9,370 nt of DNA from a bacterium (GTDB lineage: Bacteria > T1Sed10-126), in assembly GCA_003557545.1 (NCBI GenBank), contig PWOD01000227.1, positions 1 to 9,370 on the forward strand, in the 5' to 3' direction. Within the stretch, counting starts at the first letter, position 1; every line of letters starts with the position of its first letter. A program made the translations under genes and the position numbers. Shown here piece by piece: positions 364 through 9,370 of the stretch. The notes under the pieces were generated by a model. The model was not told where the DNA came from, did not search any database, and worked only from the letters and a program-made list of their open reading frames with translations.

Positions 364-2022
364 TTAATTCGAATGAAAATTTTCCACTCTGGTCTTCGCA
401 AGTATATCATGCCAGGTCCGCTGCTGTTCGTCGAAAAAAGCCCAGAAAAAGCCCAGACCAAAGGGTATGACTGAGAAAAACAGGGCCACGGACCTGGTGA
501 AAGCAACTCCCAGGGAGATCTCAGACTGATCGGAAACGGCAAGTGACAATCCCATCAGTTTTTCGCCGGGGGTCTGCCCTCCACTGTGGAAAAATGTAAA
601 ATAAAGCACCGGCGGTAAGATGCTGGAAAATATTCCCAGCATCCCCACCAGTAGATTGACTGGCGGCTCCAAAAAAATTAATCCCAGCACTCCCGGAATT
701 AAGAACAGTAACATACAGATAAAAACCAGTGAATAATCTACCAAACCGGCCAGTATTCTATTTTCAATCGGCGGTAGATTTGATGGCGATTGATCGGTTT
801 TCGAACTCTCTTCAATAAGAAACTCTGGCTGCTCAAAATAGTCAGCTATAATGGTACGACCGAGATCGAACAGTTGTTTGGAAAACTGTGACTCCGGATG
901 TGAATCAACCACGGGATTGCCCATGTCGATTGAGGGCATGACAACATTTCCCTGGCTGGGCAAACAGCCAATTATTTCCTTGCCCAGGGCCTCTTCCACC
1001 TCTTCAACCTGAAGTTCGGAGTCAGGAACATCACGATTCATCACGATTCGCACATTTTGTTTAGAAAGCCCCAGGTTATCCATCAGTTCTAACATTAGCC
1101 GCCCATTTTTTATGGTGGGTAGCTCAAGAGTTAAAAGCAACAGTATAATGTCAGCCTTTTCCATGGCTACCATGACCGGTTCCGAAATATGTGTGGAAGT
1201 ATCGATAACCACATAATCATAATGGCGTTCAAGAACCTCCAGAATCTTAACAACATCATCAGCTTCCACATACTCTGCCTGCTCCGGACGGGAAGGTGCC
1301 GCCAGCAGGTCAACGCCTGTTGATTCATGGGTATAGATATAATCGTCAACCAGATCAAAATTAATATATTCCTCCTGTTTACAATCCCGGGCAAGAGTAT
1401 CTATCATGGTCGTCGGTTTCATATCCATCAGGATAGCATCATCACCAAACTGCAGATCAAGATCAACAAGAATTACACGGGACTCAGTCAACTTACGCAA
1501 AGCGCAGGCCAGATTAACAGCCAACAGTGATCTGCCCACCCCCCCTTTAGTACTGAAAACCGAAATTATCTTACCTATTTGCTGTCGTTTGGCGCCATAA
1601 CCAGGTCCAGAAACTATCTCTGAAAGCTTTTTTTGACGTCGGCGGGAAATTTCAACTATCTCCCGCACAGCAGCCACCAGTTCCTCCTCAGAAAAGGGCT
1701 GTTCAATATAATCAAAGGCCCCCGCCCGAAGCAATCGCCGGGCCAGCTGATTGCTTTCCATCCCCTGACTTAAGATTAAAATTTCAAGTTGTGGGAAATC
1801 TCCAGTTATTTCATAGACCAGCTCCAGGAGCTCCTCGGGATCGGCGAATTCCAGGGATAGCAGCAGCAGATCAACATTATTATTTTTTAGCTGACCGATG
1901 ATCTCATCCGGCTCTTCAATCTCCATGGCAATTTCCATGGTCTGGTCGGTAAACAGCTGCTTTTTGAGTTCAATTCGCTGCTGAATATCAGGATGGGCAA
2001 GGGCAACAGAAATAATTTCCAA
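364..2022 (-). CDS. cpaE: CpaE/TadZ-type pilus positioning ATPase with pseudo-receiver and fused RDD membrane domain
   Basis: 552 residues in three parts. Residues 1-125 fold like a response-regulator receiver, but the phospho-acceptor position in DLLLLSLEF is Ser56 and the usual Lys of the K-P-F motif is Gln108, so it is probably not phosphorylated. Residues 150-405 are a ParA/MinD-type P-loop ATPase: deviant Walker A STKGGVGRS (157-165, Arg164 where Lys is common), Walker A' VDLDLQ (186-191) and Walker B VVIDTS (281-286). After a polar linker, residues 419-547 match the RDD family: ENRILAGLVDY, three or so hydrophobic spans (about 431-451, 455-478, 511-530), GGQTPGEKLMGL (481-492) and RTWHD (535-539). 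TadZ proteins place the Tad machine at the cell pole and recruit the CpaF/TadA ATPase; the RDD part would tie it to the inner membrane (inference). The start is TTG, chosen for its strong ribosome site. It follows cpaC by 57 bases. Confidence 0.9.
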   Translation of the reverse strand: MEIISVALAHPDIQQRIELKKQLFTDQTMEIAMEIEEPDEIIGQLKNNNVDLLLLSLEFADPEELLELVYEITGDFPQLEILILSQGMESNQLARRLLRAGAFDYIEQPFSEEELVAAVREIVEISRRRQKKLSEIVSGPGYGAKRQQIGKIISVFSTKGGVGRSLLAVNLACALRKLTESRVILVDLDLQFGDDAILMDMKPTTMIDTLARDCKQEEYINFDLVDDYIYTHESTGVDLLAAPSRPEQAEYVEADDVVKILEVLERHYDYVVIDTSTHISEPVMVAMEKADIILLLLTLELPTIKNGRLMLELMDNLGLSKQNVRIVMNRDVPDSELQVEEVEEALGKEIIGCLPSQGNVVMPSIDMGNPVVDSHPESQFSKQLFDLGRTIIADYFEQPEFLIEESSKTDQSPSNLPPIENRILAGLVDYSLVFICMLLFLIPGVLGLIFLEPPVNLLVGMLGIFSSILPPVLYFTFFHSGGQTPGEKLMGLSLAVSDQSEISLGVAFTRSVALFFSVIPFGLGFFWAFFDEQQRTWHDILAKTRVENFHSN

Positions 2023-5085: not shown

Positions 5086-5835
5086 TCAGGGACCGATGGC
5101 GGGATTTTGATAGAGCAGGTTATTGCCGGGATCAAATTTATTTTCTATTCCACTCCCACTATGATCATAATCGGGCTGAATAACCGAATCAACTTCTCCC
5201 GTATAATCAAGATGGCTGGGATGAACCCACTCAGTATCACCGGTCTGATCGAGGAACCATAACAGATAACCGGCTTCCCAGGAGTCTACAAGTCCATCCC
5301 GATCAAGATCGTTGGCAGTCTGGATAACACGCCGGCTAACAATCGGACGGGAAGCTGTTAAAGCCCTGAGAAAAGGTATCTGAAAGCCAACCAGATAGTT
5401 AAGCCCGATCTCAATCTCATAGCCCTGCGCCCAGAAAAGATAGGGCGCAATCAGTTCCCGAGCCGGTTCCAGACGGGGCTGATCAAAGGGAAAATCGGTA
5501 GTTTCCAGAGGAGCAATCTTATCCCCGGTATAGGGATTATAAATATCAACAAATAACTGAGCGGTATCCAGTTCCTGATAAATAAAAGCTGAATAGAGAA
5601 GGTTGGATGATTCACTGACAAAAACCTCCTCAATGTTTTCAATAGGTGCACCATATGAAGCATAAAGAGAAGCGCTATCAGCTGCCCGGTTAAGGACTGA
5701 AATATTATGGATATAAACCCCGATTTCGAAAATTCCAAAAGCCATCGCCAGGCAAACAAAGATCACAACAGCCAGTTCAACTATTGCCTGTCCGGACTGC
5801 TGACCGACAATCAGGTTAGTTATTTTTCTGGTCAT
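5086..5835 (-). CDS. TadE-like minor pilin with EF-hand/TSP3-type calcium loops (second of a pair)
   Basis: 249 residues from the ATG at 5835. In-frame ATGs at 5904 and 5871 exist but lie inside the upstream gene without ribosome sites. The chosen ATG sits one base after the upstream stop (TAA-C-ATG), has GGAG about 10 bases upstream and leaves a short leader. Residues 1-15 are a basic leader ending in Gly15, then QAIVEL with Glu at +5 and a hydrophobic span to about 41, the TadE prepilin-type pattern. After an extracytoplasmic domain (about 45-170) comes DLDRDGLVDSWE (176-187), a perfect 12-position EF-hand-type loop with Asp at 1, 3, 5 and 9, Gly at 6 and Glu at 12. A degenerate second loop, DYDHSGSGIENKFD, is at 222-235. 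It is probably an accessory pilus subunit, processed by a TadV-like peptidase. Calcium binding is inferred from the motif. The shared layout with the preceding gene suggests duplication. Confidence 0.85.
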   Translation of the reverse strand: MTRKITNLIVGQQSGQAIVELAVVIFVCLAMAFGIFEIGVYIHNISVLNRAADSASLYASYGAPIENIEEVFVSESSNLLYSAFIYQELDTAQLFVDIYNPYTGDKIAPLETTDFPFDQPRLEPARELIAPYLFWAQGYEIEIGLNYLVGFQIPFLRALTASRPIVSRRVIQTANDLDRDGLVDSWEAGYLLWFLDQTGDTEWVHPSHLDYTGEVDSVIQPDYDHSGSGIENKFDPGNNLLYQNPAIGP

Positions 5836-5836
5836 G

Positions 5837-6874
5837 TTACCAGCGCTCCGGATCCTGGGGATAACGATCATATTTATTAAGCCATCCGTTATTAACCGTA
5901 TCATGAGCAGTCCGCAGCTGACGAATTATGTAAGGCCGGGAGGAGTTGTCAACCCCCCAGCGTGGTAAACGCCGGGGAAACATCTGCTGTGGTGCCTCGC
6001 TGCCATCATCCCAGATTTCCGGAGCATGGTACCAACCATCAGAGATGATCCCTTGATCCCACCCAGAAATCCCTCCAAACTCACAGGTACTACCTAAGGG
6101 CTGATCATGGGGGCGATAAAGGTAATACCCGGCAGGACAGCTGCCGGTACTGCCATCTGTATAACCAATAGCTATTGTATCCGCCTCCCAGCTGACTCCA
6201 TCCCCATCAGCATCCTCCTGACTGCCACCAAAAAGATAGCTATCAGTCACCCCGGTATTACGATGATCACGGGGATTGGTACTGGAAAACTCCTGGTAAC
6301 TATTGCAGGGAACGCCCGGTCCGGAAAGCTGATCTTTGCAGCCATCATTATCAAGGTCATTATATTGAATAATTAATCGTTGAGTGCTAACCGGCAGCTC
6401 AATCAGCTGCATAAAACCAAAAATCCCCAGGCCATAAAACAGTTCCAGATTAATCTTCACATCCATTCCATCAACTCGCTCAATCTCAGCCGCTGGAAAA
6501 ATCTCAACATCACCGGGCCGGGAGAGAAAAAGTATACCGGGCAGCGTCCGCTGGTCGATCTGCTGATTAATCTTTTCCATGATCGCCTGATTGGAGCCCC
6601 CCAGCGAGCCGACCCGGGCCCCTTCAACCACAGCAAAATGATACAGATTATGATTATAGATAAGAAAGCCAAGATCGATGACCAAAAAGACAAAGATAAC
6701 AAAAATAACAAAGGCCAGGGCAAACTCCACCATATATTGCCCGCGGCTTGACGAACTTCGATTGAAGAAACCACAGAAGAGATTAGCCAATATTGATTTC
6801 AATGATATGGAGCGGTTAAGAGGATAAGAAAAGAACCGCTGAAAGAAGTTAGCGACAAACAAAAAGGCGGTCAA
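5837..6874 (-). CDS. tadE: TadE-like minor pilin with calcium-loop motifs and long leader (first of a pair)
   Basis: 345 residues, longer than usual TadE proteins. The TTG start is fixed by GGAGGT six bases upstream. An unusually long leader (1-45), rich in Phe and Leu, precedes Gly45, then QYMVEF with Glu at +5 and a hydrophobic span (about 51-73), the TadE/prepilin pattern. An extracytoplasmic domain (about 74-165) ends at NDLDNDGCKD (172-181), matched in the next gene by NDLDRDGLVD at the same place. A second Asp-rich loop, DADGDGVSWEAD, is at 221-232. The rest (to 345) is rich in Gly, Trp, Tyr and Pro and is unlike any family I recognise. Cys179, Cys190, Cys246 and Cys264 could form two disulfides outside the cell. 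The role is presumably a minor pilin or tip component of the Tad pilus. It follows the flp terminator, so its expression would depend on read-through. Confidence 0.85.
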   Translation of the reverse strand: MTAFLFVANFFQRFFSYPLNRSISLKSILANLFCGFFNRSSSSRGQYMVEFALAFVIFVIFVFLVIDLGFLIYNHNLYHFAVVEGARVGSLGGSNQAIMEKINQQIDQRTLPGILFLSRPGDVEIFPAAEIERVDGMDVKINLELFYGLGIFGFMQLIELPVSTQRLIIQYNDLDNDGCKDQLSGPGVPCNSYQEFSSTNPRDHRNTGVTDSYLFGGSQEDADGDGVSWEADTIAIGYTDGSTGSCPAGYYLYRPHDQPLGSTCEFGGISGWDQGIISDGWYHAPEIWDDGSEAPQQMFPRRLPRWGVDNSSRPYIIRQLRTAHDTVNNGWLNKYDRYPQDPERW

Positions 6875-6901: not shown

Positions 6902-6936
6902 AAAAAGGCCCTGGCCCCTTGAAGGGACCAGGGCCT
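6902..6936 (-). terminator. Strong intrinsic terminator after flp
   Basis: On the minus strand AGGCCCTGG (6936-6928) pairs perfectly with CCAGGGCCT (6914-6906). An inner CCCT/AGGG-type extension follows past one mismatch, and the hairpin is followed by TTTTT (6906-6902) and an AT-rich stretch. It lies just after the flp stop and about 30 bases before the next gene, so it should separate abundant pilin mRNA from lower-level transcripts of the assembly genes. There is no T-run on the other strand, so it acts in one direction. Confidence 0.9.
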
Positions 6937-6958: not shown

Positions 6959-7180
6959 CTAATCAGTGTCGCCTTCGTCTTCACCAAGCGCATCCTCGAG
7001 CTGCTGACGACCTTCAGCCAGGTCATCTTCGATGGCGCTTTCAAAAATACCTACGATCTGGGGTCCAAGAGCTACCATCACGGCGATCACAATAATCGCG
7101 ATCAAACCGACGATCAGGCCGTATTCAACCATGCCCTGACCTTCTTCGGCAGTGAAAAAATTTCCGATTTTTCTCATCAT
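6959..7180 (-). CDS. flp: Flp-type major pilin (class IVb prepilin)
   Basis: 73 residues. The leader MMRKIGNFFTAEEG ends at Gly14; the mature protein begins QGMVEYGLIVG with Glu at +5 and Tyr at +6, the Flp signature. It continues with a hydrophobic helix to about residue 44 and a polar C-terminal tail. Mature length is about 59, normal for Flp. After cleavage and assembly by the Tad machine the helices pack into the pilus shaft used for adhesion and biofilm. The last 23 residues contain 11 Asp/Glu and one Arg, more acidic than most Flp pilins, which would fit a salt-adapted organism (inference). It has its own promoter, a near-perfect ribosome site and a strong terminator, the usual design for a subunit needed in great excess over the assembly proteins encoded next. 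Confidence 0.96.
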   Translation of the reverse strand: MMRKIGNFFTAEEGQGMVEYGLIVGLIAIIVIAVMVALGPQIVGIFESAIEDDLAEGRQQLEDALGEDEGDTD

Positions 7181-7215: not shown

Positions 7216-7244
7216 AGCATACTATAAGTTAAGCTACCTGTCAA
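7216..7244 (-). promoter_or_regulatory. Sigma-70/A-type promoter of flp
   Basis: The minus strand has a perfect -35 box TTGACA (7244-7239), a 17-base spacer and TATGCT (7221-7216, four of six) as -10 box. TATAGT at 7225-7220 is a closer -10 match but would leave only a 13-base spacer. The start site would be near 7209, giving a leader of about 30 bases that contains the Shine-Dalgarno. No terminator is visible between the upstream barrel gene and this promoter, so read-through into flp is possible. Confidence 0.7.
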
Positions 7245-7269: not shown

Positions 7270-9370
7270 TTAAAAACGAAAATCAACCGAACCATAGATT
7301 CCATAGGACAGCCGATCGTTTCCGGCCTCATAATTATCCCGATACCAGGAAAAGCTGCCACCAAAAGTAGAACGAATATTATCGGTGAAATCATAGGAAC
7401 CACCGAACCGACCATCGATTGATTGATTATCCGACCGGGTTTCTCCGTCCCGGGTCCGTTTATTATATGACATCGAGATAGTGCCGTTAATCTCCAGCCT
7501 GTTGGTGAACCAGAGAATTCGCTGCTCATCCGGCTTATTAGCCAGCCAGCGAAATTCCAGGGAGGGACGCAGGGACCGCTCCCGGGTAGTAGTGAATGAA
7601 CTGTTGAGATTCATATTGGTATTCCAGCGTTGATTCCAACGCGTTCTCCAGCCCAGATCGACCCGGTTTCCGGTTGATTCTTCTCGACGATCCTCAGAGA
7701 GAGAGAGAGTATAATCAACCCGGAGAGTGGAGTTATCAGTGTTTTCTTCAAACCAGCTGCTGATAGCCTCAAGATTAAGCCGGTTATCAAGAGAAAATTG
7801 ATCGGTAGTTGAACTACGCACTGATCCTTCGTCCTGGGTGTAACTTTCCGAACGGCTAATATTGTAGCTGGTTCGCAGGGGGTTCCAGAACTCAAGACGG
7901 CCAGAAAAGCGGTGACTGAGGGATTTCCTGGCACTGCTTCTAAAATAGGTAAGACGATCGGCACCTACCGAAACATCGGGACCACGCCAGAGCCAGTTGA
8001 TATTACTATAAAAATCAGAATAAATATTGGACAGTGACTCATCCGTGGGCAAACCGTCATAACTGGCACTGCTGGTCAGTGAAAAGTTATATCTCAAGGT
8101 AAGAAAATCAAGCCGTTCCGACCAGAGCTGTGGATCTGTTCGCAAGCCAAGATCAGTTCCTCCGGAAAGACCCACGTCCTTTTCCCCGGCGACCCGGTCA
8201 AAATCCTCATCAACAGAAAAATCAAAACGCAAAGTTGGTTCTAAACCATAAAAGCGGGCCAGACCAACCCGAAGATCAAAATCCTGTGAGCGATTAATAA
8301 GACCGTCCTCTTCTTCTTCATGTTTACGGTGCAGATCAGAAAATCGATAGGAAGGTTCAAGATCCAACCAGCTATAGGGCTGAAGATTAAGATCCAACCC
8401 GAGCCGGCGGCGGACTTCCTCACGGTCACGTTCAGCAATCGGCTCTATTCCCCGGCTTTCACGGGTTTCCACGCGGCGACGCAGACCGGCCGACGCGGAC
8501 AGGGAAAACCGCTCCCCTACCGGAAGATAACCCAAAATGGGATCGGAGAAACTCTGAGAATAATCAGCCGACAGATTCCATTCTCTAACTTCATCAAACC
8601 AGTGCTCACCAAGTCGCTCACGCAGAACTTCCCGTTCATAATCAGAAAAATCAAAACTAAGGTTTGGCAGATGTCCCGGGGTCTGCAGGCCACTTCTATA
8701 ACCAATCCGACGCTCATCCACAACTCCCAGGTCATCATCTCGAACCCGTTCAACCCGATCCGGAGGTATTTCAGTCTTATCCTGGTACCAGTTAAAACTG
8801 AAGGGTACACTAACCGGCCAGCCCTCCGGGATAAACCGGTTAACATCAACTGAGCCGGTAAAATCTCGCCGGCGAGTATCTTCAGGCACAAACTCTCCGG
8901 TTGTTGAACGTCCGGCCAGCCCAATTGTCCGGAAATCTCCATCCCTCTCCTCCTGGCTATATGTCCCCTCTAACAGTCCTTGATAGATGTTAAAATCAGT
9001 CCCTATATATTCCGCCCGGCCTGTTTCTTTACGGGTTTCATGCAGGGAAAAGAAATTGAACAGAACCTCTCCCGGTGTTGGGGGATTGGCCGGATCCCCC
9101 TCCAGAGCAATCTCGTACCAGCTCACATCAGCCGGATTGGGTTCCCCCTTGATAAGCCGGTTATTACGGACAAAAGGTTCTGGTGGTGAAGGATCTAACA
9201 GCTTATCCAATAGATCCTGTTCGAGGCGACGCAGATCTATATCCACCCGGTACCAACCGCCGCCCAGCTGAGTCACCCAGGTATCAGACGACGGATTATC
9301 AAGCCCAAAACCATATTGAAAATAGTTGTTTTCACTGCGCCCAAACCGAATATATGCAGTATCGGCAGGG
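7270..9370 (-). CDS. SprA-like giant outer-membrane beta-barrel protein, C-terminal part (5' end beyond window)
   Basis: 699 residues are visible. The frame is open to the window edge and reads as protein beyond the GTG at 9276 (residues 6-20 are YIRFGRSENNYFQYG), so that GTG is not the start. Features of the SprA family (type 9 secretion translocon, also called Sov): the RFG..ENNYFQY segment followed by W...WYRVDIDLRRLEQ; an inter-strand module with GEPNPADVSWYEI and then VLFNFFSLHETR; a DFTGSVDVNRFIPEGWPVSVP segment (about 169-188), like the family's FFPEKWG..LP motif; then many alternating amphipathic strands rich in Tyr, Arg, Asp and Ser. The chain ends GSVDFRF with a terminal Phe, typical of barrels inserted by BamA. 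No secretion partner is in view, so a type 9 role is inferred from resemblance only. Another giant barrel family is possible. It lies 89 bases upstream of flp on the same strand. Confidence 0.75.
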   Translation of the reverse strand, partial: PADTAYIRFGRSENNYFQYGFGLDNPSSDTWVTQLGGGWYRVDIDLRRLEQDLLDKLLDPSPPEPFVRNNRLIKGEPNPADVSWYEIALEGDPANPPTPGEVLFNFFSLHETRKETGRAEYIGTDFNIYQGLLEGTYSQEERDGDFRTIGLAGRSTTGEFVPEDTRRRDFTGSVDVNRFIPEGWPVSVPFSFNWYQDKTEIPPDRVERVRDDDLGVVDERRIGYRSGLQTPGHLPNLSFDFSDYEREVLRERLGEHWFDEVREWNLSADYSQSFSDPILGYLPVGERFSLSASAGLRRRVETRESRGIEPIAERDREEVRRRLGLDLNLQPYSWLDLEPSYRFSDLHRKHEEEEDGLINRSQDFDLRVGLARFYGLEPTLRFDFSVDEDFDRVAGEKDVGLSGGTDLGLRTDPQLWSERLDFLTLRYNFSLTSSASYDGLPTDESLSNIYSDFYSNINWLWRGPDVSVGADRLTYFRSSARKSLSHRFSGRLEFWNPLRTSYNISRSESYTQDEGSVRSSTTDQFSLDNRLNLEAISSWFEENTDNSTLRVDYTLSLSEDRREESTGNRVDLGWRTRWNQRWNTNMNLNSSFTTTRERSLRPSLEFRWLANKPDEQRILWFTNRLEINGTISMSYNKRTRDGETRSDNQSIDGRFGGSYDFTDNIRSTFGGSFSWYRDNYEAGNDRLSYGIYGSVDFRF
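7696..7709 (-). repeat. Dinucleotide tract (CT)7 inside the SprA-like barrel gene
   Basis: Seven AG units on the plus strand, (CT)7 on the coding strand, encode the alternating Leu-Ser of YTLSLSED, a barrel strand. It is the longest dinucleotide run I saw in the window. The frame is intact here; gain or loss of one unit would break it and remove the C-terminal strands. Confidence 0.7.

Follow-up and report, generated by a model that had tools for sequence, protein, structure and literature searches.

A divergent SprA-type gene, paired PorV and cargo genes and no detected motor: a candidate type 9-like exporter in an uncultured salt-lake bacterium

Introduction

Type 9 secretion has been described as specific to the Bacteroidota or at most as FCB-wide, and its proton-driven rotary motor as needed for the release of cargo from SprA (PMC11285876, PMC10994853, PMC12611786). 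In F. johnsoniae, one PorV serves the cargo of type A, while type B cargo relies on a cognate carrier, PorP/SprF, whose gene immediately follows that of the cargo (PMC12618676). Binding between cargo and PorV in the SprA pore is energy-free in this organism, and the subsequent extraction depends on the motor (PMC10994853); experiments there have demonstrated both the extraction of the carrier from SprA and the existence of dedicated type B carriers (PMC10994853, PMC12618676). Here we describe a sprA gene that probably encodes the outer-membrane translocon of a divergent type 9-like exporter, accompanied by cognate PorV-cargo pairs and by no detected motor.

Identity of the SprA-type gene

The window analysed here, a stretch of 9,370 nucleotides, is the whole of one contig (C86) in the genome of an uncultured bacterium of salt-lake origin (G000), a metagenome-assembled genome (MAG) of 2.15 Mb in 239 contigs and 92% complete. 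Positions 9369 to 7270 on the minus strand encode the C-terminal part of a SprA-type outer-membrane translocon (699 aa), whose reading frame is cut off on its 5′ side by the end of the contig. The SprA-like features named in an earlier sequence-only reading are present. Just past the contig break lies the SprA "RFG..NYYEY" motif, RFGRSENNYFQY (approximately 9348-9313, minus strand); a segment common to SprA homologues, DFTGSVDVNRFIPEGWP, follows at approximately 8865-8815 on the same strand, and the product ends in ...SVDFRF, with Phe as the last residue before the stop.

A second contig of the same genome carries the SprA N-terminal part (1,004 aa; C23:77-3088, plus strand), which begins with a signal-peptide-like segment and runs off the contig end. 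The search with the SprA model TIGR04189, which the sequence-only reading had proposed as a check, was carried out as a profile search over both halves and matched each of them (E = 2.0e-6 for the window half, E = 4.7e-17 for the C23 half). The pieces score 59.6, 24.7 and 18.1 bits and miss the curated cut-off of 200 bits; we therefore regard the protein as a divergent homologue of SprA, without claiming membership of the TIGR04189 family. When joined, the two halves (about 1,705 aa, of which the window half makes up the C-terminal 40% or so) align co-linearly with the SprA homologue of another genome, G029, over 1,682 residues (E = 3e-156, 27% identity), with a gap of only about 5 columns at the junction. 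The window half alone aligns with the full-length G029 protein over 699 columns (E = 1.5e-50); among 200 shuffled copies, the lowest E-value was 0.004. The SprA profile search of the genome returned a single N-terminal and a single C-terminal piece. Given the co-linear alignment, the tight junction and this single pair of pieces, the two halves are very probably one sprA gene divided by the assembly. The homology to SprA, suggested earlier by the motifs, thus holds over the full length of the joined halves.

That the gene encodes a barrel of another family (LptD, TamA/BamA or similar) has practically no probability. A better match to such a family had been named as the outcome that would speak against SprA; the window half has no match in Pfam and only an insignificant one in NCBIfam (E = 0.17), so that no other barrel family claims it, and its homology to SprA is co-linear. 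Other barrel families were accordingly rejected. Among the named genomes no close relatives of the SprA protein were found, and a tblastn search of plasmids gave no match. An AlphaFold model of the C-terminal part by itself has a pLDDT of 30, too low to show the 36-strand outer-membrane barrel of SprA.

Comparison with the SprA/Sov proteins of Bacteroidota type 9 systems (6h3i, 8gl6/8gl8) reveals lengthwise homology, a signal-peptide-like N-terminus and the terminal Phe as shared features, and in both cases the translocon is found together with PorV and sorting-domain cargo. The protein described here is, however, smaller (about 1,705 aa; the F. johnsoniae protein has about 2,400), scores far under the TIGR04189 cut-off and lies on a divergent branch of its own. 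A profile built from nine SprA-type rows, including the present protein, aligns with almost all of F. johnsoniae SprA (6h3i; E = 4e-161), much of this signal coming from the other members of the alignment; our SprA as a single sequence (phmmer) and a profile from a four-row alignment (A2) gave no match to solved SprA. In a tree of 19 SprA proteins, that of G000 pairs with that of G029 (support 100/99), and these two form, with those of G038, G056, G039 and G018, a branch separate from the other SprAs (support 100/99); the branches are long, and the program issued a warning on the join between our protein and that of G029.

Host of the gene

Two genomes of the same phylum were present in the searched set, G000 itself and a soda-lake MAG, T1Sed10_126 (G001). 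Since the latter is its sole same-phylum relative, we infer that the host belongs to T1Sed10-126, which in GTDB is the name of a phylum (PMC10104926), and thus lies outside the Bacteroidota, as had been suspected from the sequence. The G001 genome contains a sprA fragment, 14 PorV matches and 3 sorting-domain matches. Upstream of its sprA, on contig C25 (locus L055), are an O-antigen ligase-TPR gene (Wzy_C) and a ComEC-like gene.

The relative also bears on the possibility that the SprA halves reached the bin from another organism. Such contamination could be suspected in a MAG whose two halves lie on different contigs, but we consider it exceedingly unlikely: the Tad genes of the window are 50-61% identical to those of G001, G001 itself possesses the sprA fragment, the PorVs and the sorting domains just listed, and the closest homologue of both halves is the same, that of G029.

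PorV carriers and sorting-domain cargo

Searching the genome for further type 9 components revealed 10 matches to the PorV family (14 in G001), the best of which, at 166 bits, is far above the cut-off of 90, and 29 matches to the sorting-domain model TIGR04183, about 28 of them genuine. Carriers of the PorV family and C-terminal cargo sorting domains are therefore both present. Of 24 extracted TIGR04183 domains, 23 form the exact C-terminus of their protein, and the remaining one is a false match to a coiled coil. The domains end in ...TIIR, ...LAIIR or near variants directly before the stop and come in two styles, ...LASGTYIYLI.G.G.SS..TLTIIR and ...NNSG..VSSGYYLYRV....TG..KTG.LAIIR. Pfam reports CHU_C/FlgD_ig or Por_Secre_tail signals on the cargo, mostly under the gathering score, and the cargo proteins contain InlB-B, GLUG, LRR or GH16 domains. 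Where their N-termini are complete, these are signal-peptide-like as judged by eye. Across 59 genomes, counted as independent, SprA and sorting domains occur together (Fisher p = 1.4e-9). One genome, G027, has sorting domains and PorV-cargo pairs and no TIGR04189 match; its translocon is either strongly diverged or absent.

At all six loci fetched from our genome, porV lies directly 3′ of a sorting-domain gene on the same strand, and most of these pairs overlap by 4-11 bases (longest-ORF start). The same order is found at 9 of 10 loci in G001 and at 27 of the 29 fetched overall, which had been picked on the PorV match alone from G000, G001, G029, G058, G054, G045, G027 and G039; the two exceptions are a G039 locus and the second member of a tandem porV pair in G001. 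By a rough estimate, which assumes that about 28 of about 2,000 genes encode a sorting domain, chance would pair about 1.4% of porV genes. The loci were scored with sorting-domain models derived from sequences of our genome, including three of its own paired cargoes, so that these three are detected by construction, their place beside porV being independent of the models. Three PorVs of our genome continue beyond the barrel into a linker that is acidic or rich in Pro/Glu and then into a C-terminal TPR tail (L103:4306-5658, L104:4769-6070 and L106:670-1938); the linker of the first is an (EP)n run that recalls TonB.

This arrangement combines traits of both classes of F. johnsoniae cargo. As in the type B pair SprB-SprF, many of the cargo genes are directly followed by a carrier gene of their own; in contrast to it, the carriers belong to the PorV family instead of PorP/SprF, some of them bear the Pro/Glu linker and TPR tail, and the sorting domains are type A/CHU_C/FlgD-like. 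With type A cargo, which uses a general PorV and the PorU sortase, our system shares the TIGR04183 sorting domains and the PorV family, but it has some ten PorV paralogues where type A cargo uses a single general shuttle, and the C25 sortase is undetected. The gene pairs can be taken directly as candidates for cognate carrier and cargo.

Search for the motor and the sortase

Of the motor, hub and sortase components, the search covered GldL and GldM (rotary motor), GldN/PorN (hub protein) and PorU (sortase). Of the type 9 partners that the sequence-only reading had proposed to look for, PorV and the sorting domains came to light; GldL, GldM and GldN did not. Peptidase_C25 (PorU) was not found in G000 or G001. 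Neither GldL nor GldN was found in our genome or in 20 others that possess SprA, sorting domains or both, among them the single-contig genome G058. For GldM, the model TIGR03517 gave no match anywhere, controls included, and PF12081, for which a positive control exists, was therefore used in its place; GldM was undetected in our genome by this model as well. All these negatives were obtained with Bacteroidota-trained models, and those for our genome concern a 92%-complete MAG.

These limits could be taken in favour of an ordinary, complete type 9 system, whose GldKLMN motor/hub and PorU would have diverged too far for the models or been lost in gaps between the 239 contigs. Weak, sub-threshold GldM_1st matches in two unrelated genomes point in the same direction, as does the need for motor energy in the release of cargo from SprA in F. 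johnsoniae (PMC10994853). Nevertheless, this explanation appears rather unlikely to us. GldL and GldN are undetected in all 21 genomes, one of them a single contig. The same models score strongly in the positive control, G062, where the genes for GldM (PF12081), GldL and GldN lie close together, and G062 is the only genome with GldM above the cut-off among the matches listed (192 genomes). Likewise, Peptidase_C25 is easily found in most other SprA genomes.

Proposed export route

Because the genome that contains sprA also encodes PorV carriers and sorting-domain cargo, a divergent type 9-like exporter, one of the two possibilities raised from the sequence, is the best reading of the gene; judged by its gene content, the exporter looks like a motor-less variant of type 9 secretion. 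In the proposed route, cargo that carries a Sec signal peptide and, at its C-terminus, an Ig-like sorting domain would first reach the periplasm. The sorting domain would then enter the SprA pore and be caught there by a barrel of the PorV family, a loading step that, by analogy, may proceed as in F. johnsoniae, and the carrier-cargo pair would exit SprA sideways into the outer membrane. As the cargo-porV pairs resemble the type B logic of SprB-SprF, the dedicated PorV probably remains bound and anchors its cargo. Since no C25 sortase and no GldL, GldM or GldN were found, release from the pore might draw on another source of energy, on a strongly diverged motor or on none.

We also advance, tentatively and as a prospect somewhat short of even, a more general proposal: the core formed by SprA, PorV and sorting domains may be separable from the GldKLMN motor, and perhaps older than it. 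Many lineages outside the Bacteroidota would then employ cognate pairs and another source of energy, or none, and the Pro/Glu-TPR tails of some PorVs could provide a periplasmic link. SprA, PorV and sorting-domain cargo occur together in about 20 other lineages in which neither GldL nor GldN could be detected, and through these lineages it becomes directly testable whether secretion requires the motor or acquired it later.

The adjoining Tad locus

The Tad locus reported beside sprA is genuine. It comprises, all on the minus strand, a Flp/Fap pilin gene (6959..7180), which is probably not part of the exporter, and, between 364 and 6874, two tadE genes, cpaB, the secretin gene rcpA and cpaE (REC+MinD+RDD). 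The sequence-only reading had suggested that the barrel might be a new partner of Tad pili; a SprA-like barrel specialised for such pili or for surface attachment, and tied to the flp operon, would agree with the mere 89 bp between the sprA stop and the flp start. Several observations make this very unlikely, and we rejected it. At 20 other loci with SprA-type genes, all in other phyla, tblastn found no Tad genes within about 5 kb, so that the linkage expected between sprA and flp or other tad genes is not conserved there. The interval between sprA and flp contains a promoter-like site, TTGACA-17-TATGCT (7216..7244, minus strand; 10 of 12 matches to the consensus, on which alone it is called), and an intrinsic terminator-like hairpin follows flp (6906..6936, minus strand); both set flp apart, and the former points to separate transcription of the Tad operon. 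Moreover, the cargo and carriers of SprA are encoded elsewhere in the genome. In G001, the contigs with sprA and with the Tad genes both end short of any sprA-flp junction. Adjacency by chance is the simplest reading.

Some features of the Tad genes may be recorded in their own right. The CpaE/TadZ-like protein (364-2022, minus strand) joins a response-regulator receiver, a MinD/ParA ATPase and a C-terminal RDD membrane domain, a fusion with identical architecture in G001 (60% identity). The two TadE-like genes overlap (5086-5904 and 5837-6874, minus strand), and the long C-terminal parts of their products are Asp-rich and calcium-repeat-like. In G001, a tandem (gaaagtgt)n array lies directly upstream of tadE at a contig end (L056:15100-15272). 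Finally, another contig of our genome (C167, locus L121) carries what, by gene length and order, looks like a type IV pilus cluster (pilM-pilQ-like) with a second secretin.
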